NCBI GenBank assembly: GCA_019096195.1
Contig: JAGTXK010000073.1
Location: 992,001-1,056,000, forward strand
Origin: Boletus sp. NGJ
Lineage: Eukaryota; Basidiomycota; Agaricomycetes; Boletales; Boletaceae
Length of the DNA stretch: 64,000 bases
Direction of reading: 5' to 3'
Shown: in pieces, positions 2,977-58,171 of the stretch
Numbering within the stretch: position 1 is the first letter of the stretch
How the letters are laid out: every line of letters starts with the position of its first letter
The notes under the pieces: generated by a model
What the model was told of the DNA's origin: nothing
Database searches by the model: none
What the model saw: the letters and a program-made list of their open reading frames with translations, nothing else
Translations under genes and position numbers: made by a program

Positions 2977-5259
2977 ATGGCAAGTTCATTCTTCATCCAA
3001 CCCGACCACACAAAATCGATTAAATCTTCTCCTCAGCTAATCAGAATCAGGTCAAAGGACGGAAACTTTCGCTTCGAACTTTCCCCATCCGATGACATTC
3101 GTCTCCTCGTCGACAAGGCAGATCCCATCCCTTCGCTTGCCCGCTCCAACTGACCCGACCTCTCCAGATCATCCAGTCCGCCAGCAACAACGTCGACCCG
3201 GCCTCAATCACAATCTCAAATCAGCCACGCGGCAACGAGTCCCTCGTCACACGTCTCACCGGCCGAAATTTACAGTCACTCGGATTGAAGTACGCCTCTC
3301 TGGCATCTCTGCTCTCCCTGCTGACGATCGCCCAGACACGGCGATCTCATCTTTGCCAACTATAACGATCTCTCCACCTCCATCTCTCCGGATCCCTTGT
3401 CCCCCGCCACAAACGGCCACACACGCCCCTCAAAGCCAAACAAATGGGAAAACGTGCAGGAGGATCCCATCGACTCCTATTGGCGATCAAAAGACGGTAA
3501 AATTTCCCGTAGCCGTGACTCGCGCTTTTGCAAACACGCGTCGAATGGCATGTGTGATTACTGCATGCCATTGGAACCCTATGACGCGGCCTACCAGGCT
3601 GACCATAGCATAAAGCATTTGTCATACCATGCTCATCTCTGCAAGCTCTCTCCAAAGTCATCCTCCGCTGCTGCTCAGGCCCTCCCCCCGCTTTCCCCCA
3701 CTTCGTACAAAGTCAAGGTGCCCTGTCCGACAGGTAATCACCCATCATGGCCATCAGGGATATGTACCGCCTGTCAGCCGTCTGCGATCACCTTACAGTC
3801 CCAACCCTTCCGAATGGTAGACCACTTGGAATTCGCAACACAATCCATCGTGGAACGATTTCTACAAGCCTGGAGAGCAACTGGCCTCCAGCGCTTCGGC
3901 TGGCTTATAGGACGTTATGAGCCTTACAACGAGGTGCCGATGGGCATTAAAGCCGTGGTAGAGGCAATTCATGAACCCCCCCAAGAGGGCGAGCTCGATG
4001 GTCTGACTCTGGGTGTTCCCTGGGAAGACGAACAACGCATCAGGGAACTAGCTAAATCAGCGTCAACCCCTCTATCGATCGTTGGGTATATCTTCACAGA
4101 TCTTGACCCAACTCCAGATGATCGAACCAAGAATGTCTACAAGCGACACGCTCAATCGTATTTTGTTTCTTCGCTGGAAGCTATTTTTTCTGCCACTGTT
4201 CAAAATGCCAATCCCACCCCATCTCGATCATCCTCGAGCGGCGCTTTTGGCTCGCGTATGGTTACCGCCATTCTTACCGCGACAGAAGATGGCCAAGTCG
4301 ACATCTCCGCCTACCAAGTGTCAGAGCAAGCCTGTGCCATGGTTGCAGCGGATATGATCGAAGCCAGCGTGGAACCCGGCATCGTCCGAGTCAAGGAGGA
4401 GGACCGTAGCCAAGACTCCGCACGTTACGTTCCAGACGTGTTCTATCGGTACAAGAATGAGTATGGTCTTGAGGTTAAGAAGAGCGCAAAGCCCTCCTTT
4501 CCAGTGGAGTATCTTCTCGTCAATGTAGGCGTGACTTTGCGTCCTGCTGGCCTAGCAATCATGACATGTTCGATAGGTCACTCATGGCTTTCCACAAACA
4601 CCTAACCCAATGTTCCAATCGACGCAATTCGCCATTGAAAACCGTCCCGGACTCGAAGATCAGCAGGTCGACAGCATTCTCAGCTCGCTCAACCGCCTGG
4701 GAACACCGTCCCTTGAGGACACGCGCAACACGGTTAAACGTCTCGAGGTTGCGAAATGGTTTAGTGATTGGCACTTGATTGCATTCCTTGAGACCACCCA
4801 GCTACTGTCACCGGTATGGTTTTCGATCACTCTATGATTAACGCTCCCAGTTAACCCAACCTGTTCAGGACGACACAAAGATCCTTATTCGCACGGCCAC
4901 TTTGCCCCAATTGTTGGAAGATCCCACCGTGCTGGACGCCCTCGTGAAGACAGACGGATGGCAGACTCTCATAACCTTTGCCCGTGAAAGTGCTCGTGAG
5001 TACTTCCTGCATAGCATGATATGACCTCTTGGGTACAGTGATATACCCAACAGCGGCTCGTCCGACATCGTCAGCACCAACCGACTTGGGACCTATGCAT
5101 GACGAAATTCCCCAGGATATCTTTGATCAAATTGCCGCAGCAGAGGCTGCTCAGAATCGAGGAAGTGGCAACTCTCGAGTCAGGATCTGTCCTCATTGCA
5201 CCTTTGAAAATGAACATGGAGGCCATGATTGTGAAGTTTGCGGTTTACCCCTCGGCTAA
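2977..5259 (+). CDS. NPL4: Npl4, ubiquitin-recognition cofactor of Cdc48/p97
   Basis: Npl4 pairs with Ufd1 on the Cdc48 ATPase to extract ubiquitylated proteins, for example in ER-associated degradation. Six exons (2977-3117, 3168-3289, 3336-4524, 4577-4813, 4869-4995, 5039-5259) join in phase to 678 residues. The N-terminal UBX-like fold reads LIRIRSKDGNFRFELSPSDD. Cysteine and histidine clusters of the zinc-binding region follow (CKHASNGMCDYC, CPTGNHPSWPSGICTAC). The MPN-like core begins with MVDHLEFATQSIVERFLQAW and contains FGWLIGRYEPYNEVPMG. The C-terminus is an NZF finger, CPHCTFENEHGGHDCEVC. The first intron appears to be GC-AG (3118-3167). The first 20 residues before LIRIRS are unusual for Npl4, and the true start could differ. 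Confidence 0.95.
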
Positions 5260-5561
5260 AGTTGCACACGTATCTCTATCTTGACACCGCAAGATTGACA
5301 GATGTAATATCACCATCAGCTTAAAGATTCAGGTCTCGTACACATATTGACCGGCAGATAGTAGACAGATGAAAATACGTATTATCATCGTTGTACAAAA
5401 CTCGTGGCTCGCATGTACTTGTAACAGTGCGGATAGGCACGTGTGACTAATGTATAGTTTTGAAGACAATATCCCAGTCGACCAAGGAAGGCACATCAAG
5501 GAGAAAGTGTTACCCAATATGAGGGGTCCAATGTCTCTGAAGGGATAAATCACAATAATAC

Positions 5562-7172
5562 TTAGGCCAAGATCCACCATCCAGCAAAAAAAAGGCCACA
5601 GAAGACACCGACAGCACGAAGAACGATGACAACGACGAGCGCCTTGCGAACTGCAGCGTAAAAGTTGTTCAGAGCGGTTCCAGACCAGTTGAGGCTGTGT
5701 GAAGCAGTCAGTACTTGCAAAACACCGGACAAGAGAACGCTTGCCGTCGATCGTTTGAACCGCCCTCGCGGATGCTGGCTTCCCAACCACGTACAACTTC
5801 ACGATAGCGCTTGCCGAACACCCTGGTATACTGTGATAAACAAAGTGACGAGCTCGATCACGACGCGAGCCTTACCAGATCCAAAAATTGACATCTGGAT
5901 ATGAGAATCGAGGAAACACGCTGGCAAGGCTGGGGGCGACAGCGTCAACGCGCATACCTTCACCACCGACAGGTCGGAAGGGTAACTTCAGGTTAAGGAG
6001 GCGCTGTCTAGCGATCTGTTCTGATTGCGGTGGTTCGGGTACCATATTTGCCACGAGGTCCAATGTCATGCCAAGCGAGAGACCCCACAGCTTGAGCTGA
6101 CGGTGGCTGGATCGTTTCTTCTGTTTCTCCGGGGCCACCTTGGCAGATATAATACCCTTTTCGAGCACATCCTGTGTCAGCACGGAGTATGAAGCACTAG
6201 TTGGAAGAGGAGGTGATCCGGCGGAAAAGGGTGATTTGGAATCCGGTACGTTAAGGAGAATAGCAGGAAACTGCATACTCCCGATGAGGACGCGAACCAG
6301 AAGTTTCAGGACAGCAGCATGCCGTGGCGTCAACCTCGAGGCGGCATCTACTGTTACGCTTGACCATTTTCCTCTTGAATCCACGAGTCCGACCGTTTCA
6401 GGTAACACGGCACTGACAAGTGCATCAAGAGGAGTCCAATGGATATAAGTGCCGTCAGCGGGTTCTGTTGAGAGCGCACGGGGAGTGAGTTGCAAAAAAA
6501 CAAAGGGAGAAAGTATCATGAGCAATCGTTTCCCGAGAGAGGTGGTGATTTCCCGGTCATCGAGCTGTCCGATACATGTAAAGTCACGCTCGGCGAGATC
6601 CAAACCGATTTCCTCCCATGTTTGCCGCATAGCTAGATATCGGACGTTCAGAGGGTGACGGCGGGTTGGTCGAACGAGGTAGACGTACCTGTGTAGAGAC
6701 CACCTTCGTCCCCCTCTTCCGTTCTTCCACCTGGGAAGGCGAGGTGTGCTTCGGCTCTGCTACTACGATGCGTGCTGCCCTCGCCTGACAAGCTGGTCTT
6801 TAGACTGTCCGAGGAAGAACCGCTGTCTCTCTGCAAGAACAGGATCTCTGGGCAAGCAGCGGGGTCCCTGACCCAGTCGAGCTCAAAAAATTGACTGAGT
6901 GTGGGGATGGGTGCATCAGCGGGAAGTGGAGGAGCGGTGGGGGAGGGGACGATGCGAATGACGACGGCGACGGCGGCACGACGAGGTTCTGGGGGGGACG
7001 TAAGGCCAGGCACACAGCAGGAGGGGGGTATAAACTCACGAGTTGCTGGGGATGCGATGATGCGAGGAGGAGTCGTGCGGATGCGATGAAGTGCACGCGA
7101 CAAGAGGCGTATGATCTTGTCTTGTTTTTCTGGAGGGGAAGAATGAGAAGGAGCCAGTGATAGACAAGACAA
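5562..7172 (-). CDS. Nudix hydrolase, CoA-diphosphatase-like, with C-terminal membrane segment
   Basis: Exon 1 (6689-7172) and exon 2 (5876-6632) join in phase. Exon 3 starts at 5822, and the final junction near 5700-5790 is not settled. AFPGGRTEEGDEGG, then RQTWEEIGLDL, is a Nudix box arranged as in the NUDT7/NUDT8/Pcd1 coenzyme A diphosphatase group, with R-Q where the consensus has R-E. The two metal-binding glutamates of EE are kept. After the roughly 250-residue hydrolase part, VFGKRYREVVRGWE is followed, near the stop at 5562, by VVVIVLRAVGVF and a second hydrophobic run ending WWILA, a likely tail anchor. The N-terminal 70 residues are basic and Pro-rich. The substrate is unknown. Confidence 0.8.
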
Positions 7173-7785
7173 GACTAGCCTTTGGACATTTCTTGTACAA
7201 TACCTGGCCCTGCCACCACAGTTTCTTGTTTCTTGTCTCCAGTGTGCGTGGTGGGTAGACCCTGGCCACCTCTACGAAGACCCCTGCCACCGATCAGCCC
7301 GGGCCGGTACCCGCGATTTCAGTCGGAGACGATTATTCAAAGTCCACCTGTAACCGGACCGCTGCTACTTGCAAAATGCATAGATTGGCGTTAGCGCGCT
7401 GCTGACACGGTTGGCTATGGTCGAAATTCTTTTGGTGTGCAACGTGTGATGGAGATTGGCCGCATGGAGAACACGGCGGCCTTGCTGCACAGCGATAGAT
7501 AGAGAAGGCGACGTCAAGTTGGGGATAAAGCCATGGATAGCGCGCAGTTACACGATCGAAAACGGTCCAAAGGTGGGAAAGCGAGGCGTCCGCGTCCTCT
7601 CCCGACCGTAAAGGGGACTCTCGACTCGGCAGCCAACCTTCGACCCTCCTCCCTTCCCACTCTCAATTGCATCTCCTTCACACGTCCACTGCTTAAGAAC
7701 GCCAACCTTTCCGCACTAGCCCCTCAGCAACATCCCACCCTGCATCCCGACCAGTGACCCACCCCCATCAGCACCTCTACTCGAC
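7173..7785. other. Divergent intergenic region between Nudix and Yippee genes
   Basis: About 610 bp separate the two divergent start codons. It contains no convincing coding sequence. The part nearest the Yippee start is pyrimidine-rich (7610-7780), as is common upstream of basidiomycete start codons. I could not define a specific regulatory site. Confidence 0.5.
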
Positions 7786-8267
7786 ATGGGAATGAAATAC
7801 CGCCGTTATCTCGCCGGCGAGCGCATCTATGGTTGTTCCAAGTGCAAGACTCATCTTGCCACCATCCACTCGATGATATCTCGAGTGAGTGTTCTCGTGT
7901 TCCCCCCCGTGCCCGTCACTAAAAGTCCCTAAAGGCATTCAATGGCCAGCACGGGCGCGCCTATCTCTTTGAAGGGGTGTAAGTGCTCTGTCGCTGTGTT
8001 TGCCTCCAACAGCTCAGACTGTTGGACAGTGTCAATGTCGTCGAAGGCGAACCCAATGACCGCCAGATGACGACAGGTAACCACATCGTTCGGGATATTT
8101 ACTGCGTCAAGTGTGCCACCATCCTAGGATGGAAATACGTTTGTATTCGCCTGTCGTTATTCAATCTCGTGTAACTGTGATTGCAGGATCGAGCATATGA
8201 AGCTTCCCAGAAATACAAAGAGGGAAAGTATATTCTCGAGCGCAATCTCCTCGTTGACGTTCAATAA
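7786..8267 (+). CDS. Yippee-like zinc-binding protein
   Basis: Four exons (7786-7884, 7935-7978, 8030-8138, 8187-8267) join in phase to 110 residues, the normal Yippee length. Two CxxC knuckles are present: [11 protein letters not shown] near residue 17 and [14 protein letters not shown] near residue 70. The conserved core [18 protein letters not shown] lies between them and [10 protein letters not shown] after it. The C-terminus [13 protein letters not shown] is also typical. Yippee proteins are highly conserved zinc-binding eukaryotic proteins; in mammals YPEL5 associates with the CTLH/GID ubiquitin ligase, but the fungal role is not established. Splice sites are canonical; the acceptor of exon 2 is AAG. 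Confidence 0.95.
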
Positions 8268-9100
8268 GCGCTGCCCCTGCCCGCGGCCACCCTGGAGCAC
8301 ACGCTCCAGTCTACATGGGATAACAATGTCACTTTGACGATGGTCTCGCTGCCAGAGTGGACCTCGACAAGCCACCAATCCGCCCATGTTCAAGTTCTCA
8401 CCTCGATCTCATCCACATTCTCACCGCATATCGACAGCTAATCTGTCATCCTAATTGGGTATACACGTCAAGTCAGCTGCCTCGCCTTAGGAAGCACGAA
8501 CACAGCTTCGTGCAAGGCTGAGCTCCGGTTTGCCCTTTGTTTCCTGCGAAACAAGGGTTCCGCGACCTGACACCGACCGTTGCCCGAAGTGTATCATTCC
8601 ATCAACGATATCATCCACAACCTCAACAAGGACTAATTTAATTGGAACTTTACAATTCATTCATTTTCTTTCCTACTTCCTTTTTAAAGCAAATTTCTTC
8701 CCCGAATCGGCTTACTCAAAACACATTCGGAGGCAGAGATTCCTCGGTGTATATCATCCATTGTTCACGCACGATTATTTGCAGTGGTGGAGGGGTGGCT
8801 TTGTATATTTCCTACTACACGCCGACATTTGAATACATTGCGGCCATCAGGCTGGGTTTGTTTGCGAGTGTTTGGTGCACCCGAACCCCAACGGGATGTA
8901 AGTTGATTTGGCTTCTACTTGGACTCCCCAGCGGATTTGCAGCTCGCGTATAAAATCTACCCAAACGACGACCGGTCTGAGACTCGGCGTCATCACGGTC
9001 CTTGTCCATCTCCACTACCGTCTTCACTAAATGGGTTTGTCTTATTTCCCTCTCCACCACCCTCTCCTCACCCTTTTTCTTTTTGCCAGCAACTCTCACC

Positions 9101-9343
9101 ATGTCTTCCGTTCGTTCCCAGCTGGGCGCTGCTTCACAATACGTCCCCTCTCCGCTCGCTGGATCCTCCCACAACTCGGTCTCTGCTCCCTTCAAGACCA
9201 TTGCCACGTCGCAGCCCCCACTTTGCACCCTCGCGCCCCATCCGGCCGTTCGCCTCTATATCACAAAATACCACCCTCTCGTCAACGAAGCCTGTCAAAC
9301 TCATCGAGCCTCCTCAGAATTTCAAGACAACCTTTGTCCTTGA
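9101..9343 (+). CDS. Possible small protein, unrecognised
   Basis: An ATG preceded by a pyrimidine-rich leader (9040-9100) opens an 80-residue frame beginning MSSVRSQLGAASQYVPSPLA. I recognise no family. An overlapping frame contains the protein-like run VKLIEPPQNFKTTFVLDLTQ just downstream, so an intron joining the two frames is possible, but no strong splice site pair was found. The stretch 8268-9100 before it has no supportable gene. Confidence 0.25.
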   Translation: MSSVRSQLGAASQYVPSPLAGSSHNSVSAPFKTIATSQPPLCTLAPHPAVRLYITKYHPLVNEACQTHRASSEFQDNLCP

Positions 9344-9399
9344 CCTGACACAGGTCGAGTTCAGTCGACAAGACTGACCCCTTTCTCGTCACACGAACA

Positions 9400-12215
9400 T
9401 TGATCCCCCACTCTGCGTCCACGCACGCCCCTCTGCACCATTTCGCTACTAGGCCGCATCTTGGAGGTTCTTATTCAATGTTTATTACACGCCACCCCCA
9501 CTGTTCCATTAGAGTATAGGTACACATACACATGTTCCAATATTGTCATCGAGTCACCCGCCTTCCGTTCCATATGTAGACCTTTTTCCGTGCCCCATTC
9601 TCAGCCTACGTGGGCACGTACCGAGTACTGTTAATGGAGAGTCACTTATCATTTATTGTTGGATCTGCTGCGTCAGCGCAAACAAGGGTGGGAGGATCCA
9701 ATGTGACATCAGCTTGGACAGAGGGTTACCTAGCGCATGTGTACGCAGCCCTCCCCAGTCGAGCAGCGGAATGGCGCAGTTCTAGCCCGCGTACAGACAA
9801 GCTGCTTGACCCCGCTGGCTGGAAGATGGTATATACTTGGTTCAACGCTGTGCGGTCGGGCCAAAGAGATCATGGTCTCGTTTTGATCTGCACCTGGAGA
9901 TGCACAAGACTGGGACACTGCTGAAGGATGCTGAAAATCACACTGGAAAATTGTCATCAGGTCTCAATCGACTAACCATTACCATCTTCAATTGCCCAAT
10001 CAACCTGTCCTACCTCAAGTTGTAGCCTTCCCAGCCAAAGCTGAAAGGAATATTTTTGAAGCTGTGGGCAGCCTCACGAAAACACAAACAGATCATTGGA
10101 GCACCATTCATTCTCAAATTGTTGAATCCAGTCGAGGAGATAGAGATTGGTGGACCTGTCTACAGCTTTGCCAAGACACTGAGTTGCCCAGGTGAATAAA
10201 GCAAGGCAAGATGGTGGAAGCCAATGATGAGGTCAAGGAGGCAACGAACGAGGACAAGGGACCAGAAATAAAATTGACTGAGGTCATTCTGTGCGAGTAG
10301 ATGGAACGGATTGAATTCAATCAAGTATGAGACGTGCTCGACATCGCTTGACTTTTCGAGTTCTTGGTGTATACGGAAGCTTCTGATCATGCAGACGACG
10401 ATGGACAGTAGTCACGGTAGTCACCTGCCTTACCCTGAGAATTAACGGACAACAAGACGGGGAGAATAAGTTTTACCTGTTTTCTGAGTCGGATCATTCT
10501 AGCTGCCAAGCGTTTCATATGACGCGGATCAGCTTTATGTATCGGATGGGTATATGTGCATCCGTATGCTTGTTGCCCACTTTTTCGCCGAATCGTCGAG
10601 CACTACCGTCGTGTTCAGACCTTTCCTCACATTGACTGATCGTGTCGATGGCAAACGAAGAAAGTTGTGCATGTACTTACCCTCGTAAGTGTTGGCGGGG
10701 TTCCACAGATGCGAGTTCATACTAGGTAACCTGTGATTCCGCTGATTGAGAACTGTTGAATTCCATCGAACAACCGAAAACGAGGCAAAGGCGTGTAATG
10801 AACTTAACTTTACCAAGGTTTCCCCGAATGCGTCGGATGCTAGAGAACACTCGTATTAATCACACCGTTTCCCCACTCGTCCTTTTTTTTCACCATTCTC
10901 CCGGAGTGACGGAGGAAATGTATGTAAACAAAGACCGAATGGTTGTTTCCAGGCCCTTCATATGGCTCTGGATCCGACGTTATCATTCTCGCTTTGTTCC
11001 GGTGGCAATAAACTCTGGAGATCGAGCAAACGATGTGTGAAACAACGCCGACGCTGGCATTATTTTGTATTCCCCTTGATCGCCAAGTCATGTCATTTCG
11101 GATGTGCTGGCTGTAGTCATCTGAGGCGGGAAGGTAACAGCTCGCCTCAGCATTCGGGTCCCCCGATATTTCGTACTCGGAGAGTGGATATGCTCTAAAC
11201 CAGATTATATGGTGAATAATGCGACCTTTTTATTTACGTACGGATGAGCGCTAGCTCTTTCAGCTTTCAAGATGTGACAGCAACGTGTGTAAAGCTCGGA
11301 AGAGGACTGAGTGCAAGCATATCAGGGAGTCAAGCACCTATTCGGGTCTCTGGAGGGTGCATGAAGAAGGAACATTGCGACCTCGAGGTGGCTGCGGAGG
11401 GAAAGGAACGACTTTTCCGTGGGCACCTGAGTGACCAAAACGTCGATCCTCTGTCCGCGGAGCTAGACCAAAGCAGGATACACAAAAAGGTACTTTCCTG
11501 TTGAGAGTACGTCGTGGGTGGAGAGACAGGTGAAACCTGCTGCCAGAGTATTTACGCGTCACCGTAGACGCCACAGGCATAGATGGGCCTGGCAATACCG
11601 GGAGCGAGTCGGGCGGCGATGGACGGCGATAGCCGGGGAGGGTTGTGAGACGTGAGAATGGAGAGATATGGGCGCAGGCATGGTTTGCTGTGTTGATGAC
11701 AGTCTGGGGACGCTCGTGAAGACGCTGGCGGGGATGGAGAGGGGTGATTGGGAGGAAATATAACTAGCCTAGCTTCCCATGTTTGGGGCGAATTAGGACA
11801 AAAAGGAGCGCGGATTGAGGAGGATTGTGAGTGTTTAAGCGGAATACGCATCAGCAAACTGGCAGTGCCGCTGCAGAATAGAAATAAGACCCTTCGAAGG
11901 AGCAGCGACACTTTCATCAACGCCGTCTTCTTTCTCTCCTCCTTCTCACTACATTTTCCTGCTCTGTACTGGGCCGTTTTTCGTGCCTTCATTTTTACGA
12001 CCTTGCACGATTTTGCACGACATCTTTTCTCTCCCCTTTCTTTTCTCCTCTCGGACCCCCATCCTTTCCATTTCATCAACTTTGAGCAATCCAAGGTCTG
12101 CATATCTCACATATTCTCCCACCCTCACTCAGCCCTGTCCACAGACTCTTGCCATCCTACACACCATTTTCCCAATCTTACACATCTTCTTTTCTTCCTT
12201 CCCTGTCGACAAGCT
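9400..12215. other. Gene-poor stretch with scattered unassigned exons
   Basis: No gene with a recognisable domain was found in about 2.8 kb. On the minus strand, 10535-10770 could encode exons reading MNSHLWNPANTYEG then NTTVVLDDSAKKWATS across a 58-nt GT-AG intron. KRLAARMIRLRKQ appears nearby with a plausible following intron near 10430-10475. A second minus-strand candidate lies at 11340-11960: a Ser/Pro/Arg-rich, mitochondrial-presequence-like run with a possible GT donor near 11563. Neither could be extended into a convincing gene. Confidence 0.3.
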
Positions 12216-15406: not shown

Positions 15407-16053
15407 GGCGAGCAAACGAGACGAGCTAAAAATTGGGCAAACCGTGACACGGCCCTTGACCTGCGAGTCAGCACCTTTTTGGGAGCGCATCAATCACATG
15501 GATAGGAATCAGTGGATTTAAGCATTATCTAACGTATCACTGCACTAGAGCCACGAATTGATAGAGATGCAAACAGCATTGTAGTACAAATAGTAACAAC
15601 ATGGGATGCTTGCTATGTTAGTTCTAGGTCGACATGAGTTTAATCAAGATGCTGATATAGCATTTTGTTCCAAAGAAAAATGGACAAGAACCAAATCTAC
15701 ATATCAGCCTTTAATAGGATGAACAACACTTTCTAGGTATTGCATGTGCTCAGGGAAGACATCCAAAATCCTTATTTTCGATATACCAGTGATACATTGG
15801 AATGTCTGGAACATTTCTTGAAGGCCCTACAGGTTTATTGATCTATTGTACAATAATGGGCAATGAGGCAAGATGAACTATTAATTTCACACCAACTTTT
15901 GAAGTGTTTTCAGTTTCCAGTGCCAGTGTGGCAATAGTAATGCTGTGTTGTGGTTTAATTGTCACACTTTACAACAACAAAAAAAAAAAGGTGTGCTGGA
16001 GGATTTGTGTATCATGGGTATGCAACTAATAATCCGATATGACAATAGGGTGG
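15407..16053. other. AT-rich, CpG-poor intergenic region
   Basis: About 650 bp without a supportable gene. From roughly 15,640 it is AT-rich and nearly free of CpG, continuous with the CpG-free 3' half of the neighbouring chromodomain gene. A short A-run occurs at 15,980-15,990. I saw no terminal repeats or transposase remnants. Confidence 0.5.
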
Positions 16054-19000
16054 TCATTGAAAATAGTCATCTTTGAAGCTGAACAGAGAGAGTGATGACC
16101 ATTCAAGCTAAAGTACAATCAATAAGAGGTCACAAGATGAGCAAGGAAAGACTTACTCCATCTTTATCAAATGATAAAGTATCCTCAGAGGCAGCTCTGA
16201 TCACTACAAATCTCCTATAGTTCTCCATAAATGCTGGTTGAATTTGGGCATTCAAAAGATCTCTGATGACCTCATTGTTTGTAAAAGTGATAAGCTGTTC
16301 AACTGTCATGCCTAAGGTGGTAGAATGGCTTTTAAGGACTTCAAGATAGATTTCTAACAGCTCATGCCCACTGGCAGCAGAATGACTGAAGAGCTGGGAG
16401 AGCCAAGTAACTTGGTTAGAATGTCCCTTTTCAGGCATTCTGGTTGTAGAAATCAACCCAAGATTGATGAAGTCCAAAATAGGGCCTAAACATGATTCAC
16501 TGACAGAATCACTGTAGAAGTTGTTGAACATGTGTTCAATATAGAAGTTCAGACTCACCTGGAAGAAGTCAGGTCCTCATCACTGCACAACAGGTGACTC
16601 ATAGCCACAACCTCTGGAATAAGATAGCAGTGCCAAAGAGGGTGCTCTATGATCTTGGATATTAATTGATGACAACCCACCAAATCTTCTGCAAGTGCAG
16701 AAGCAGTAAAGGTTACAATCCCCCCTATCTCAGATAACACTTCAGACACAACAACACAACATTAAATGAGCTCATACCTAATGGATAGATCTCCTGAACT
16801 CTCCATCTCTCACAGGTTATGCTGGCAGAGTAGCCATATGTCCAAAATTGGATTTCAGGAGAGTTGACCCTCTTTGTGACCAGGGATGGCATATTGTGCA
16901 ATATCTCTAAATGCCTATTGGATATGAAGACAACCCTTACATCCTCTTCAACCTTGGCTGACACTGCCTTGGTTGATTTGAGGATGCATTGAAGCATAGC
17001 AGTGTCCAACACTAGTGACAATTGATCAGGCAAGGGCCAGATACAATATGCTCTGCTTGTGGGGGAGTTGTTGAGGAAGTCCAGTAGTTTCTTTGGAAAA
17101 TACAACAAGGACATTGCCTGATACAACATAGCCTCCTGGGGAAGGTCATGATGTACCAACACATCCTGTGGGTTGAATGAGGATTGTATCACAGTCTCAA
17201 TGGATCTCCATCCAGCAACATTGGTAGATGTCATGGCTGACACTAGAAGGGGGAAAAGCACAACAAGAAGAGGGGTTCCAGACAGAAGATGCTCTGGTAC
17301 TTGCAGGACCTTGGTCAACCCCTTTTGTGCCCCTGGGAAGATGATAAGCACTGCTACTTCAGTATCATCAAGGAGCAGTGGAATTGCTGCAGCCTGCAAA
17401 GTAGAGTCAATAAAATGCTAAGCAAAGAATTAAGAAAGCCAACCAATCCTTCACTTTTCAAGTGATGTTCCAAGCCTTGTATGATCACCTCCTCACTGGG
17501 CTCGTTTGACTCAAGCCTACCAAAGTACTGGGGTTTTCCACAGGCTCGAAGAAGAGGTGACAGATCCATAATTGGATATAGCTTTGAGATCCGAAGTGAG
17601 TCTAATGACAACAGCAAGAGATTGATGTGGGAGCTGTTGCTTATGCCGCTAGGATCTGCAATAGTAACAGCACAAAGAGGCTCGGTTTTGCTCTCAGAGG
17701 TGCTGATGAATAGATCACCAGACCATCTCCACTTCTTGGGTATTCTGGAAAGAAGGTTAGCACTTGAATATCATACACCAGTCCAACACACTTTGGTATG
17801 GCCAGGATCTTGTTCAACTCAATTGCTGGTTGCTCAGACTGGTCAGGTGTTACAGCCATCTCCCTTTGTGGACCCAAATATTCAGTCCCAATGAAGTAGA
17901 AATCACAACATTACTCACAAAGGACCACTTAGCCTGGATGGAATGGGGCTTTTTAGTCAGATAGAAAAAAAATGACATGAAACTTACACAGGAATATGAA
18001 CAGTTTGCAAAAACTTCTCTGCATTGATTTCTTCCTGAGACTTTGGTGGTATGGGGGCAGTCAAGATTTCAGAGCTTTTAAATTCACATTTCAGATAGGC
18101 TCGATATCCCCTGAGCAACATACCTTCCACCCAGTGGTCCAGAATCATCCAAGATAGAACCAAAGGGATCAACAGGTTCATCAACATCCATTGCTTGGGG
18201 GGAAGCAACCATAACTGCATCAACATCTGTGTGTTGAATCACAGGTGATGTAGGTGATGCAACGGACGTGTTTGACATTATAGTGTCTTTCGTCTGGCTA
18301 TCGGGGGGAAGAAGTGATTTGTTCTTCTTAAACGAGAGTGATGGAAGCGACTTCTTAGGTGGGGGTGGAAGCGGCTTAGGGCCAGTAGGAGGCGGTGGTA
18401 TTCCAGCAGCCACGCGCTGCTTGGTGGAAAGAGAACTTCCAGCCTCGACACTCTTAGAGGGTAGATTCATGGACTTTACCAGGGGATTGATCCTCTGGTC
18501 TTGATGAGTGCGTACAACGGTAGCCTTGTGTGGTGCGACAGACAATGAACCATCGGTCGTTGGCGGCAATTCTTGTCGTTTGACCTGGGCCAGAACCTGT
18601 TCGGCGTAAGCACTATCCGAGGAAGTAAGAAGCAGGATCCACCTTTGGGATTTCCTTTGAAGCTGGTGTGGTGGCTTTCGAGCGAGATACAACCTTCACC
18701 TGCTTGCGCATATGGCAATCGGACTCAGACTCAGACTGTGATGTGGAGAGGAATCAATCAAGTGCACAGATGAAGGTGACGGATGAGAGGCACGTACTTC
18801 TGTATCGACGATGCGTGCCTTTCTGTTGAGCTCCTTCGTAGCACGTGTTTTCGCTGAAGACACTTCATCTGAAGTCTCAGAGTCATCCGTGGAATTTGGC
18901 AGTGTGCTCGACTTCGACTTCGACTTCGACTTTCGCTTCTCCTAGAAAATCATTTAGCCATGGATCTCATGTCAACGTGTTCCCGACCTGTCTGTCCTTC

Positions 19001-19591
19001 TTGTTTGTTGCCTTACCTGCCGTTTGTTTCGAGGACTTGGCAAATGTCTCTGCGAAATATCGCTTCTCTTTATCTGTGAATATTTGAGAATTTGCTGGAA
19101 ACAATGCGATGAAGTACAGACTAATCCACTCCTCTCCAGCCGCTGTCTCGTAACCGATAGGATAGTCATTGTTATCCGTACCAATATGTTTCCAGAAGCT
19201 TGCCAGGAGTCGCTCACATTGCCGCACGTTCGCCGAAGGCTCCCAGCTACGAACACTAAGTAACACGAAACACGCGTATCTTGGATGCTGTTATACACCC
19301 ACCTGTCCGAGTCCGAATCATAACCCGCCCACTGTGTGATGGGGTTGAGCGAGAAATTTAGCTACCAGCGAATGGTTTGATCACCTTCACGAGGTATTCC
19401 TACAACATCTGATGGATCGGTATTGGATAATATGACTAGAGCAAGCCACTTACCCAATCACCGTCGTCACTGACCCGTGCTTTCGTGATGACCTCTGAAA
19501 ATCCTTCGTAGCAACGGGTAGTCTATATGGTAGCGGGGTCCTTACCGACGTGATATACCTCCTCCTCTTCGTCCTTTCTCTTTCTTGGCAT
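16054..19591 (-). CDS. Chromodomain protein with C-terminal SPOC/PIN-like region, Chp1-like
   Basis: A heavily spliced gene of about 900 residues that can be read without a stop. The chromodomain is spread over four short exons: VYHVEVITKARV, EYLVK (15-nt exon), WAGYDSDSDSWEP, and SANVRQCERLLASFWKHIG. The aromatic cage residues (Y of VYHV, W and Y of KWAGY) are present, so histone H3K9-methyl binding is likely. A Lys/Ser/Pro-rich linker follows. The C-terminal half starts with RWSGDLFIST, has ACGKPQYFGRLESNEPSEEV, LAAAIPLLLDDTEVAVLIIF and a C-terminal helical part, resembling the SPOC then PIN-like order of fission yeast Chp1, the RITS-complex chromatin anchor. The Chp1 match is by architecture, not by alignment. 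Exon borders near 19130 and 17830-17900 are my best choice. The 3' half contains almost no CpG. Confidence 0.75.
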
Positions 19592-19751
19592 ATTCTCGAA
19601 GCGAATTTGGAACCAATGTACTCTGGGTGAGGTTTAAGAAAGAGAGCAAGGTTAAGGCCTGGATCTCATTGGTAACACGTGATCCCCAACTTGGCGCGTG
19701 GCGCGCGCCATGCTCAACGTCAGACAACTTCACGACGAGCAACATTCCAAC

Positions 19752-21161
19752 ATGGCATCCAAAGCGAAGTCCAAGCAGGAAGAGGCTCTTCAATTCCTCG
19801 ACGATCTCGATAACCTCCAACCCTCCGCTGGCCCGCCCACCTATCGTCAGACTACACCTTCACATGGGCATACAAGCAACGAGGGAGATCCTGCTGAAGT
19901 CCTTGCTTTCATCGATGAAATTACCCAGAAAAGCTCAGAGCCTACCCGTTTAACAGCGCCGCCGATAGATCGCCCTACCTCGCGCGCTGGAACCCCTTCC
20001 CTTCGCAAGGGTACCGAACGCGTCAGGGTGGGTGTGCATCCGTCGTCCTCCACGTCTTCATTGTCAGGAAAGCCAGACTCAGCTACGGGAGCATTCTCTA
20101 CCACCAGGCCCGAGGAGGCAGCGGCAGCGTCTGCCACTTCATCGGGGGGGTGGGGATGGTCGAATGTATGGAGCAGCGCCTCCGTTGCGTATCAGCAAGC
20201 CAGATCCGTCGTCGATGAGCAAGTGAAGAACCTGCCAAAGAATGAACAAGTCAGCAAATGGGGAGAAGGCGTCTTTGAGTATGCGAAGACGGCCCAATTG
20301 GATAAACTTGGTATGCAAAAATGATGACGGTTCACAAGCCTCCTAACAATCATCAGGCCACGACTTCAAGAGAGTTGGATTATCCACTCTCAATGATATA
20401 TTGAATGTCGTTGCTCCTCCAATCTCGGAGCACGAGGTTATTCATGTCTGGCTTAGCCATGACATGCGGGGATACGATGGCATCGAGATTCTCGTGTATC
20501 GCTCACTCGCACGAGTGAATTATATCCACTTCATTATTCATTCTCGGTGCTTAACTCATTCCACAGATTATGGAGCAAGTCGAAGGTGGTGACCTCATTG
20601 TCAACCGCGGTGAAGAGTCCAGACCCAAGGACTCCCCGGATTCTACCCGAGAACTCAACGTTGTCGATGGCTACGAGGCTGCGCTGAAACTTGCTCAGGT
20701 AATCTCTTCGTACCATGAGTAGCTTCCCTTCTCAATACTTTCTCTAGGCCAATTTGGACGAATTGATCAAGAACCAAACCAAGGCTCCCAAAAGGGAGTT
20801 GTCAGTCGATAACCCAGTTATTTACTCCTCAGTCTATCTCCGAGTTCAGCCCTTCACGCGGTCGTATTCTCTTCCTCAGCTAGCGCAGGGAACTTCTGAC
20901 GCGGCAGACACTTATTTACAATTCATCTTACACCTAGCTGACCCAGGGCATCAGCTGGTGCGCACCACAGTAACACAAGCAATCCCCGCTGGCTGGCTAG
21001 AAGTCTGGGATCAGTACGACTGGGTTGAAGATCATGTTGCAGAATCATTGAGGGTCGCTGTCGAGGTACTTGGACAGGACTATCTCGCATCCAGGATGGG
21101 CTGGAAGAAAGCTGCACAGAACGATGATAATGCGCCGACTTCCAGCGAGGAAACGACATGA
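19752..21161 (+). CDS. MTC1: Mtc1-like protein (maintenance of telomere capping 1, DUF5427)
   Basis: Four exons (19752-20310, 20357-20514, 20567-20698, 20748-21161) join in phase to 420 residues. The N-terminus KQEEALQFLDDLDNLQ and EVLAFIDEITQ are typical of the fungal Mtc1 family, as is the central GGWGWSNVWSSASVAYQQA with KNEQVSKWGEGVFEYAKTA. HDFKRVGLSTLNDILNVVAP and MEQVEGGDLIV are also conserved. The yeast protein is linked genetically to telomere capping and membrane traffic; its molecular activity is unknown. A further in-frame ATG at 19698 would add 18 residues. The 5' end is 160 bp from the divergent chromodomain gene. Confidence 0.88.
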
Positions 21162-55764: not shown

Positions 55765-58171
55765 CTAGCAAGCACCATCATTCGTCCAATCACCAGCGGC
55801 ACCTGAAAAATAAAATCAAGGCAAATCGAGTCAAACCCGTAGTAAAAGTCTCGTGGATTGCAGTTGCATACCTCCCGGGGTATCATTCTCCGTCCACCAC
55901 TTTGCGGTCCAGAGATACCCACTGCACATAGTTGATCCCAGGCAAATACACATTAGATGATGTCACTCACCCGTAAGTCACCTCATCACCAGCAGTGTAT
56001 GCAACATTCGTCTGCCAAGCAACCACCCCACTGCAGCTCACCGTGCCCGTCGTTGTCGGAGTAGGAGAACTACTCGTCGATGTGATCGTTCCTGCTGCCG
56101 AGGAAGTGATTGTCGAAGTAGCAATGTTACTCGTCGACGTGGTCGTGCCCCCAGCTGAGGAAGTGCTTATCGGAGTAGCAGTGCTACTCGTCGACGTGGT
56201 CGTGCCTGCTGTCGAGGAAGTGCTTGTCGGGGCTGTCGACGATCCCGCACAAGCACTAACTGCAGTCTGATCTGAGTAAATTCAACGAAAGCGATCGATA
56301 GACGTACTTGCGCTCCACCCATTGGAGCTACCACTAGCGGGTACGGCATTGGTCCAGTAAGCTGCCTGTGTGGCCTCTTAGTGGATCGCCCCCTCACGAG
56401 GGTTCAGATTGCGCACCTCCCAGATATAGCCTTGGTATGATACCTCTTCGCCAGCAGTGTATACTTGTCCCGAAACATACGCAGCGGCGGAACAAGCCGG
56501 ATAGGTGAATCCAGTGGAACCTGTAGCACTCAAAGCCTGCTTAATCGCGAGGTCATATCTATTGTTGGCTATGCCCAAAATAAATCAGTGGAAGAGTACG
56601 CATCTCTCAGACGTACCATACGCCTGGGAAGCGTCCCATAGCATCACGCCCCCGAACGAAGGGAAACTTTTCCTCATTTGTACAGCGATGTTGCTGAGAT
56701 CCGCAACGGACACATAACCAGATCCGGCAGCGGTGCTTGAAGCAGGGGCGCCAATGTATATTTTCACCTGGTGAATATTCTTGTCAGCAAAATCGGATCC
56801 GAGGATAAGGATACAGCAGCACACGTACATTTGGGTTTGGGCTGGTCTGCTGCGCCCATATGTCCCTGGTGGGAGTATTACCATGGAATGTAATAACCTT
56901 GCAACGGGCACTCACCATTGGCCAAAGTTCCAATCCTTTTGGAGAGCTCAGTGTACAAAACACCTGATGATTCAAAAAATGAACTTACCGACACGATGTC
57001 ATAGTTTTGCAAGCCACACGCATTATTATCTGGTGAGATTAAGCCCAGAGCTCTGAAGAGAGACTTCTGCTTACAAAACTGGACGTAAATTGCATCAAAT
57101 CCGACTTGATCGATCACGCTACCGAGATTAGCATCCGGGAACGGGCACTGCGGTGCACCTCAGAAGAGTTAGGGGTGAGCATACTTTCAATTGGCGAGAT
57201 GAATACCTGTCATGTAGTACCTGTACAGCTTTAGTCACTATCTCCACGGATCAAATTTTGAGTGCACTCACGGTTTGCTAGCTCCTGATGCCAGAGAGCG
57301 AATTTCCGTGACGAAGGCCGCGTAACCCGTGGATCCACCCCCTTCGATATCAAGATCGACACTACAACCGTCCCTTAAGTGGCCTGAAGCTTGCGTTGAG
57401 CAACTTACCCGTCCAATACTGCGCCACCGAAGGGTCGTGTGGCACTGCTCCCACCCAAAAACAAATTCCAAACTACAAGTGATGTCCTCAGCCGGGCCAA
57501 GATAAGGATGCGAAAATACTCACTAGTCTGTGCGAAGGTTTGTGCCTGCGCATCATCGGTGAAACCAACGCTACCGCCCGCACCTCCTAGAGAAAGGGTT
57601 ACGATCTTGCCTTTAGATTGACAGTATTCGATGTCTGCAGCCAAAGCAGAACAGTCGGCAAGATCGGTTCCCGGAAATGTGGCATTGTCTGTCGGGTTGC
57701 ATGTCTGGCTAGACAGTCAACATAAAGTTACGGATAGGACAGTGGGACGCGTACGTTCGCAAGATTCAGGACAGGCATTCCGCCGGTGCCGAAGAACGCG
57801 TCCACAAAGGCAACAGGCAGGGCATCTATGGCGTCGTCCTTTGATACCTAGAATGAGTTCCTCGGCACAAGCTTCGGGAGGACAACCCACCTGGCAATAA
57901 TATGATATCGGTTGTTGATAGTTAGCAGTAACACTGCTCGTTGCACCATAAGAGTTTTGGCCCCAGTATCTATGCTGAGATGTCAGGAAATGGTTAATGG
58001 GAATGAAAACCCAATCTCACACTGCGACCTGGATAATGTGTGAATAAAAGCTATAGAAGTGAATCACGAGAGTGGACATACATTGTCATAATAAGAGTTG
58101 TCGTATGCAAGGACCTTGCCCAGGTATAGGCATACACACACCACGACCGTGAGGGTGGAGAGGAATGCCAT
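55765..58171 (-). CDS. GH18 class III chitinase with CBM5/12 modules, copy B
   Basis: Paralogue of copy A with the same exon order. The signal peptide start, a glycine-rich strand ([16 protein letters not shown] where copy A has [16 protein letters not shown]), the catalytic DxxDxDxE region (VDLDIEGGG), the MLWDASQAY end of the barrel and both chitin-binding modules are present. Differences include an expanded Ser/Thr linker ([19 protein letters not shown]) from a 57-bp tandem repeat, a few amino-acid changes and small intron differences. The reading frame can be followed throughout, so both copies look functional. Such chitinases act in wall remodelling or in attack on other fungi; which applies here is not shown. 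Confidence 0.92.
56071..56235 (-). repeat. 57-bp tandem repeat in chitinase B linker
   Basis: Units start at 56,071, 56,128 and 56,185, each beginning TACTCGTCGA on the plus strand, giving about 2.8 copies with a few differences. They encode a 19-residue Ser/Thr repeat between the two chitin-binding modules. Copy A retains only part of one unit near 52,233-52,270. Confidence 0.92.

Follow-up and report, generated by a model that had tools for sequence, protein, structure and literature searches.

A nearly CpG-free block spanning the 3′ half of a Boletus sp. NGJ chromodomain gene: a probable imprint of long-standing CpG methylation

How does a gene come to lose virtually all of its CpG dinucleotides over one half of its length and still keep an open reading frame? 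The accepted view is that methylation of fungal DNA avoids genes, which it would mutate, and lies mostly on mobile elements. The question is raised by a locus of the basidiomycete Boletus sp. NGJ (32.8 Mb genome, 141 contigs), which we analysed in a window of 64,000 nucleotides (C81:992001-1056000; unless another locus is named, positions below are those of the window). The initial annotation had described, inside a chromodomain gene, a stretch at 16037-17502 that lacks CpG altogether, and by recount these limits are exact to the base, with the bounding CpGs at 16,035 and 17,503. The 1,466-bp CpG-free core (16037..17502, no strand assigned) contains 307 C and 321 G, for which ~67 CpGs would be expected at random and 60 at the window's CpG ratio of 0.89, in agreement with the ~60 expected originally; GpC (62), CpA (137) and TpG (122) are as common as had been noted. 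Around the core extends a CpG-depleted block (15631..18262, likewise strandless; GC 42%) holding 8 CpGs, at 15779, 16035, 17503, 17547, 17592, 17647, 17683 and 18102, with a CpG observed/expected ratio (o/e) of 0.07 as compared to 0.89 for the whole window. The wider scarcity had thus been located correctly (~15,640-18,260), but the CpGs in it are fewer than the ‘dozen or so’ reported. Both edges of the block are sharp, CpG density being normal again at 15,630 and at 18,263. The high edge falls within the exon 18,124-18,692, away from the splice site, and in the flank beyond it (18263-20500) the CpG o/e is 0.93, which bears out the abrupt return to normal CpG described for the 5′ half of the gene.

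As judged by the rest of the window and by other loci fetched from the same genome, the block stands out. Elsewhere in the window no CpG gap exceeds 155 bp. The minimum among 1,946 other 1,466-bp windows from the fetched loci is 27 CpGs (L048, a depleted locus described below, and the locus's own copies were excluded), and 235 native windows, again excluding L048, have CpG ratios of 0.68-1.17. An ordinary genome-wide CpG deficit is ruled out by the sampled loci and these native windows; a deficit of like depth in ordinary DNA, the observation that the initial annotation had named as speaking against its reading, is absent from them. Apart from L048, the 271 kb examined yielded neither a comparable depleted block nor another depleted gene. 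This sample covers <1% of the genome and is not random: it consists of 150 kb in regions that were chosen, ~104 kb surrounding the 30 top-scoring RVT_1 matches and 16 kb from DNMT loci that overlap in part, with the locus's own L001 excluded. The present gene itself fits a gene-body pattern. The longest CpG gap in this sample outside L048 is one of 331 bp amid normal DNA (L038:928-1259). Within the block, repeats amount to one weak 21-nt direct pair, and no inverted repeat pair was found. Read on each strand, the 8 CpGs of the block give 16 contexts, and in 10 of them a T precedes the CpG; in L048 (84 contexts) the TpCpG context is background-like.

The dinucleotides that replaced the CpGs reveal the kind of change. 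In the block, CpA and TpG are raised (o/e 1.48 and 1.42), while GpC (0.90) and TpA (0.61) show no rise. Taking the window's own ratios as the baseline (0.89/1.15), 96 missing CpGs stand against a TpG+CpA excess of 97, and with assumed native ratios (0.93/1.12) 100 stand against 107; this balance is rough, because the expected counts are calculated from a base composition that the loss has already altered, and the same sum for L048 gives 204 versus 300 or 194 versus 277, depending on the baseline. Furthermore, the loss does not distinguish coding from non-coding DNA: 5 CpGs are observed versus 81.7 expected in the exons of the block, 1 versus 12.6 in the introns and 2 versus 13.8 in the 3′ flank. 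Since all three are depleted, it is the DNA that has mutated, and codon selection is ruled out as the cause. The trace is one of CpG cytosines having changed to T in both strands, with the CpG deficit and the rise of TpG and CpA that deamination of 5-methylcytosine (5mC) in CpG leaves. RIP of the CpA-to-TpA type known from Pezizomycotina is ruled out, as TpA is not raised (0.61 versus 0.68 for the window).

The chromodomain gene is encoded on the minus strand (16054..19591; ATG at 19591, stop codon at 16056-16054, ~15 exons in a rough inferred model). Its annotation as such was sound: the hand-spliced N-terminal peptide matches the chromodomain profile PF00385 over residues 13-64 (E 2.9e-14), the coding sequence of the domain being spread across small exons at 19186..19591 (minus strand). 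By CpG count, the CpG-normal 5′ part of the gene covers 18263..19591 (minus strand). The C-terminal coding exons within the block (16054..18074, minus strand, hand-made model) are 17988-18074, 17919-17933, 17792-17863, 17444-17744, 16778-17393, 16559-16724, 16157-16511 and 16054-16107, and the 3′ half of the model contains eight introns, all 47-55 nt long and bounded by GT and AG. The longest exon (16778..17393, minus strand) lies inside the CpG-free core and is part of a 230-aa stop-free frame, as compared to a maximum of 206 and a mean of 108 aa in 500 Markov simulations of the block. The joined block exons have a 3-base periodicity of 6.8 (the largest of 300 Markov null values is 2.9). The statement that the coding frame is still open is borne out by this stop-free stretch, the periodicity and the GT-AG introns; as all three survive, selection seems to have kept the gene, whose 3′ half has the appearance of coding sequence that selection maintains. 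This part of the gene is present in a single copy in the genome. Its C-terminal half has no match in Pfam or, by phmmer with E up to 10, in PDB, and an AlphaFold model of a 205-residue piece of the largest exon has a mean pLDDT of 37. Upstream in the gene, at 18620-18700, two coding frames abut without a clear intron, which may point to an overlooked intron, an indel or a fault in the assembly.

Could the 3′ half instead be an exonised or mis-modelled transposon relic, depleted as transposons are? Its composition is close to that of the relic in L048, it is silent in Pfam and PDB, and most single exons are only weakly 3-periodic (from 0.5 for the 301-nt exon to 4.1 for the longest). Nevertheless, we regard this as quite improbable: the open frame is longer than any simulated one, the exons are strongly periodic once joined, the eight short introns have regular ends, and the high edge of the block lies inside an exon and not at a splice site. 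We found no transposon in the block, neither a TE coding domain nor multicopy DNA, and none of the RVT_1, Chromo and Plavaka matches listed falls in the window.

The codons of the block record how the CpGs were lost. In the block exons, the third codon base before a G is T in 85 cases and C in 3, whereas before a base other than G it is T in 106 and C in 127. None of the 155 four-fold degenerate Ser, Pro, Thr and Ala codons is NCG. Arginine is encoded by AGR (AGA or AGG) in 14 of 16 cases; it accounts for 16 of 600 codons in the block, and for 7 of 144 in a small sample, the portion of the exon 18,124-18,692 where CpG is normal. Not a single in-frame TGA is present in the 600 block codons of the gene model. 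As read from the sequence, these routes of CpG loss probably reflect selection on the protein.

The same scar is found in the mobile elements of this genome. The stops inside 150 scored RVT_1 matches (of 471 candidates) are 98 TGA, 7 TAG and 3 TAA, an excess of TGA (98/108) that CGA-to-TGA change predicts. Those inside Plavaka matches, which are fragmented and may run across introns, are less one-sided: 111 TGA, 60 TAG and 40 TAA (111/211 TGA). In both cases the tallies were transcribed by hand, and the element copies are related, so that the stops are not independent. Depletion at the 30 best-scoring RVT_1 loci is much milder than in the block, with a CpG o/e of 0.49-1.23. Locus L048 (C81:1600001-1610000), one of 15 ten-kilobase regions sampled and located on the same contig as the block, goes much further: over 6.3 kb (3701-10000 of the locus) its CpG o/e is 0.16 and its CpA/TpG 1.51, with a sharp edge near 3650-3900 and a longest CpG gap of 807 bp. 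This stretch contains a Plavaka relic (PF18759, E 1.2e-7) and DUF6532, and we excluded it from the 1,946-window null, from the 235 native windows and from the in-silico decay described below. Decayed transposon DNA of this genome has thus undergone near-total CpG loss, and the gene block bears the same mark. The genome also encodes the enzymes that such a process calls for. CpG methyltransferase genes are identified by the catalytic DNMT profile PF00145 together with BAH and DNMT1-RFD domains: a DNMT1-RFD enzyme lies on C22 (C22:1102858) beside catalytic matches, a BAH domain occurs with DNMT in L004 (C45), and a further DNMT is located on C102. Piwi-domain (Argonaute) genes are present as well. 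The Plavaka transposons and the DNMT1-RFD enzyme, the short introns and the genes near the locus (a Ras-family gene, a DUF5427 gene and one for a 30-kDa subunit of complex I) are in keeping with an Agaricomycete.

Did the CpGs disappear gradually, or in a burst? The initial annotation had offered methylation followed by deamination alongside a CpG-directed RIP-like process. The former is well supported at the sequence level, by the TpG/CpA excess, the depleted introns, the methyltransferase genes, the transposons and the two-copy segment considered below; the latter is less likely. A RIP- or MIP-like event would presume that the segment was once duplicated, that CpG-directed premeiotic mutation or methylation struck it within one or a few generations, and that the partner was then lost. 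The sharp edges, one of them inside an exon, fit a duplicated segment. In Rhizoctonia solani AG8, CpG-biased hypermutation is reported to extend into genes (PMC4014442), and for Ganoderma RIP of the CpG type is described (PMC4457147). We nonetheless consider such an event unlikely. No second copy of this part of the gene was found in the genome. Moreover, a burst free of selection should have created some in-frame TGA codons, and the gene model has none, although this is a weak point because the model was chosen to be open. Finally, TpG/CpA is just below the range simulated for fresh conversion (see below), which selection could also cause.

The sole two-copy segment argues in the same direction. 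This intergenic segment, at 15567..15833 (plus strand), crosses the low edge of the block and has a CpG-normal counterpart of 66% identity, L055:1485-1759 on contig C124. The two copies share a 21-bp identical core, and the L055 partner lies upstream of another open frame; Rfam has nothing at gathering score in the window or in L055. As the partner is not depleted, the segment does not support a repeat-triggered process striking both copies. Only 1 of the 11 CpGs of L055 that align to the window is kept, at 15,630, that is at the block edge itself, just below the block, and 5 of the 11 are now CA or TG, two of these (15,597 and 15,602) just outside the block's low edge. By comparison, GpC is kept at 7 of 18 sites and CpA+TpG at 29 of 46, and at non-CpG sites C-to-T or G-to-A differences number 20 versus 12 in reverse. 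The comparison leans the way CpG decay would predict, with small numbers and an assumed direction of change.

We also compared the block to the 235 native windows after in-silico CpG decay, and its other dinucleotide ratios fall within the simulated range. Its TpG/CpA of 1.45 is just below the 1.46-1.75 simulated for fresh conversion and its GC of 0.421 lies at the 1% low edge of the simulated 0.416-0.492. This fits old native DNA in which TpG and CpA have drifted on, although selection may lower TpG/CpA as well. When CG and CA/TG are left out of the profile, the block is no outlier, 27 of the 235 native windows being equally far from the mean. These results bear on the suggestion of the initial annotation that the stretch was acquired from a source poor in CpG, by transfer or by gene conversion. 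The sharp edges, the drop in GC to 42% and a CC/GG of 1.11, just over the native maximum of 1.10, could be read in its favour. However, the profile lies in the native range, CpG decay of native DNA reproduces the block, CC/GG included, so that no foreign source is needed, and no donor is found in the genome. The suggestion is thus unsupported, and we judge such an origin highly improbable.

Taken as a whole, the block is probably a 2.6-kb region that was methylated for long and lost its CpGs through deamination of 5mC, and the single-copy gene whose 3′ half it covers is probably a living one. That the DNA is or was methylated, that this lasted long and that the gene works we infer from sequence. 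Here, the block would be a chromatin domain covering the 3′ half and the 3′ flank of a functional chromodomain gene, and would have carried CpG methylation for long in nuclei that reach the next generation. Spontaneous deamination of 5-methylcytosine would then have turned nearly every CpG to TpG or CpA, with purifying selection keeping the protein by admitting synonymous changes (NNC|G to NNT|G, NCG to NCA, CGN to AGR), and the 5′ half of the gene would have stayed unmethylated.

This distribution has a parallel in the gene-body methylation of invertebrates, in which CpGs are depleted in the body and the 3′ end of genes and the 5′ end is spared. The Boletus gene shares the spared 5′ end and the depleted body and 3′ end, and differs in that it stands alone, with normal genes on either side. 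For fungi, reviews describe gene-body methylation as largely lost (PMC13297926; PMC7862722, with two exceptions), and basidiomycete 5mC is described as mostly CpG (PMC13297926, PMC4457147); in Ganoderma sinense, 98.7% of 5mC is in CpG, with TEs higher than genes (PMC4457147). A close precedent is the CpG-to-TpG decay of basidiomycete TEs, linked to a Masc2-like DNMT1 (Amselem et al. 2015, PMC4352252). The present case resembles it in the both-strand CpG signature, the DNMT1-RFD enzyme and the scar in retroelements and a Plavaka relic, and differs in its target, part of an open single-copy gene in which no transposon was found; its CpG-free stretch of 1,466 bp also exceeds the longest in the sampled relic (807 bp). 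That Agaricomycete genes, and not only TEs, can carry dense 5mCG is indicated for Coprinopsis cinerea, where ~890 genes have at least 0.7 5mCG in whole-genome bisulfite data discussed in PMC8889193; there 5mCG was measured, whereas our block is known from its bases. In Rhizoctonia solani AG8, as in our gene, CpG changes to TpG in Agaricomycete protein-coding genes; there, the changes are widespread heterozygous SNPs between nuclei (PMC4014442), unlike the one sharply bounded block in the assembly here. The mutational process is therefore known in basidiomycetes, and it is this target and a CpG content down to zero that are unusual. No CpG-free functional fungal gene is mentioned in the titles and abstract openings that we searched, most subscription papers being beyond reach.

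Does the chromodomain product act on its own gene? A protein of the Chp1/RITS or HUSH type could bind H3K9me on the gene's own 3′ half and silence it by feedback. The gene does encode a chromodomain, Piwi-domain genes exist in the genome, and the C-terminus may resemble the SPOC and PIN domains that Chp1 and TASOR contain, a likeness seen by eye that we treat as a lead, because Pfam and PDB are silent on it and the AlphaFold model is unusable. The Chp1/TASOR domain architecture used for this comparison is that given in PMC7532188. Nothing ties the protein to its own locus, and the evidence consists of the chromodomain; we see such feedback as a long shot. A broader proposal, that a heterochromatin gene has had a very long heritable, CpG-methylated 3′ half with sharp bounds and no transposon, and has stayed functional, perhaps with the help of its own chromodomain product, is in our view decidedly unlikely. 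If it were true, the block would be a fossil record of an epigenetic state that was stably inherited, and perhaps autoregulated, at one single-copy gene of a fungus. Zero CpG over 1.5 kb of a functional single-copy gene would show the mutational cost of methylation being paid; orthologues of such a block would tell how old a methylated domain is and how long it persists, and the gene would make it possible to study how function is kept up as nearly all CpGs vanish.

Two further observations concern the window and the assembly. At 56070-56229 the window contains a 57-bp tandem repeat in 2.8 copies, 57 being a multiple of three. Elsewhere, pairs of kinase matches with equal or near-equal scores and similar spacing occur on contigs C59/C127, C10/C94 and C35/C50, which suggests uncollapsed haplotypes or large duplications.
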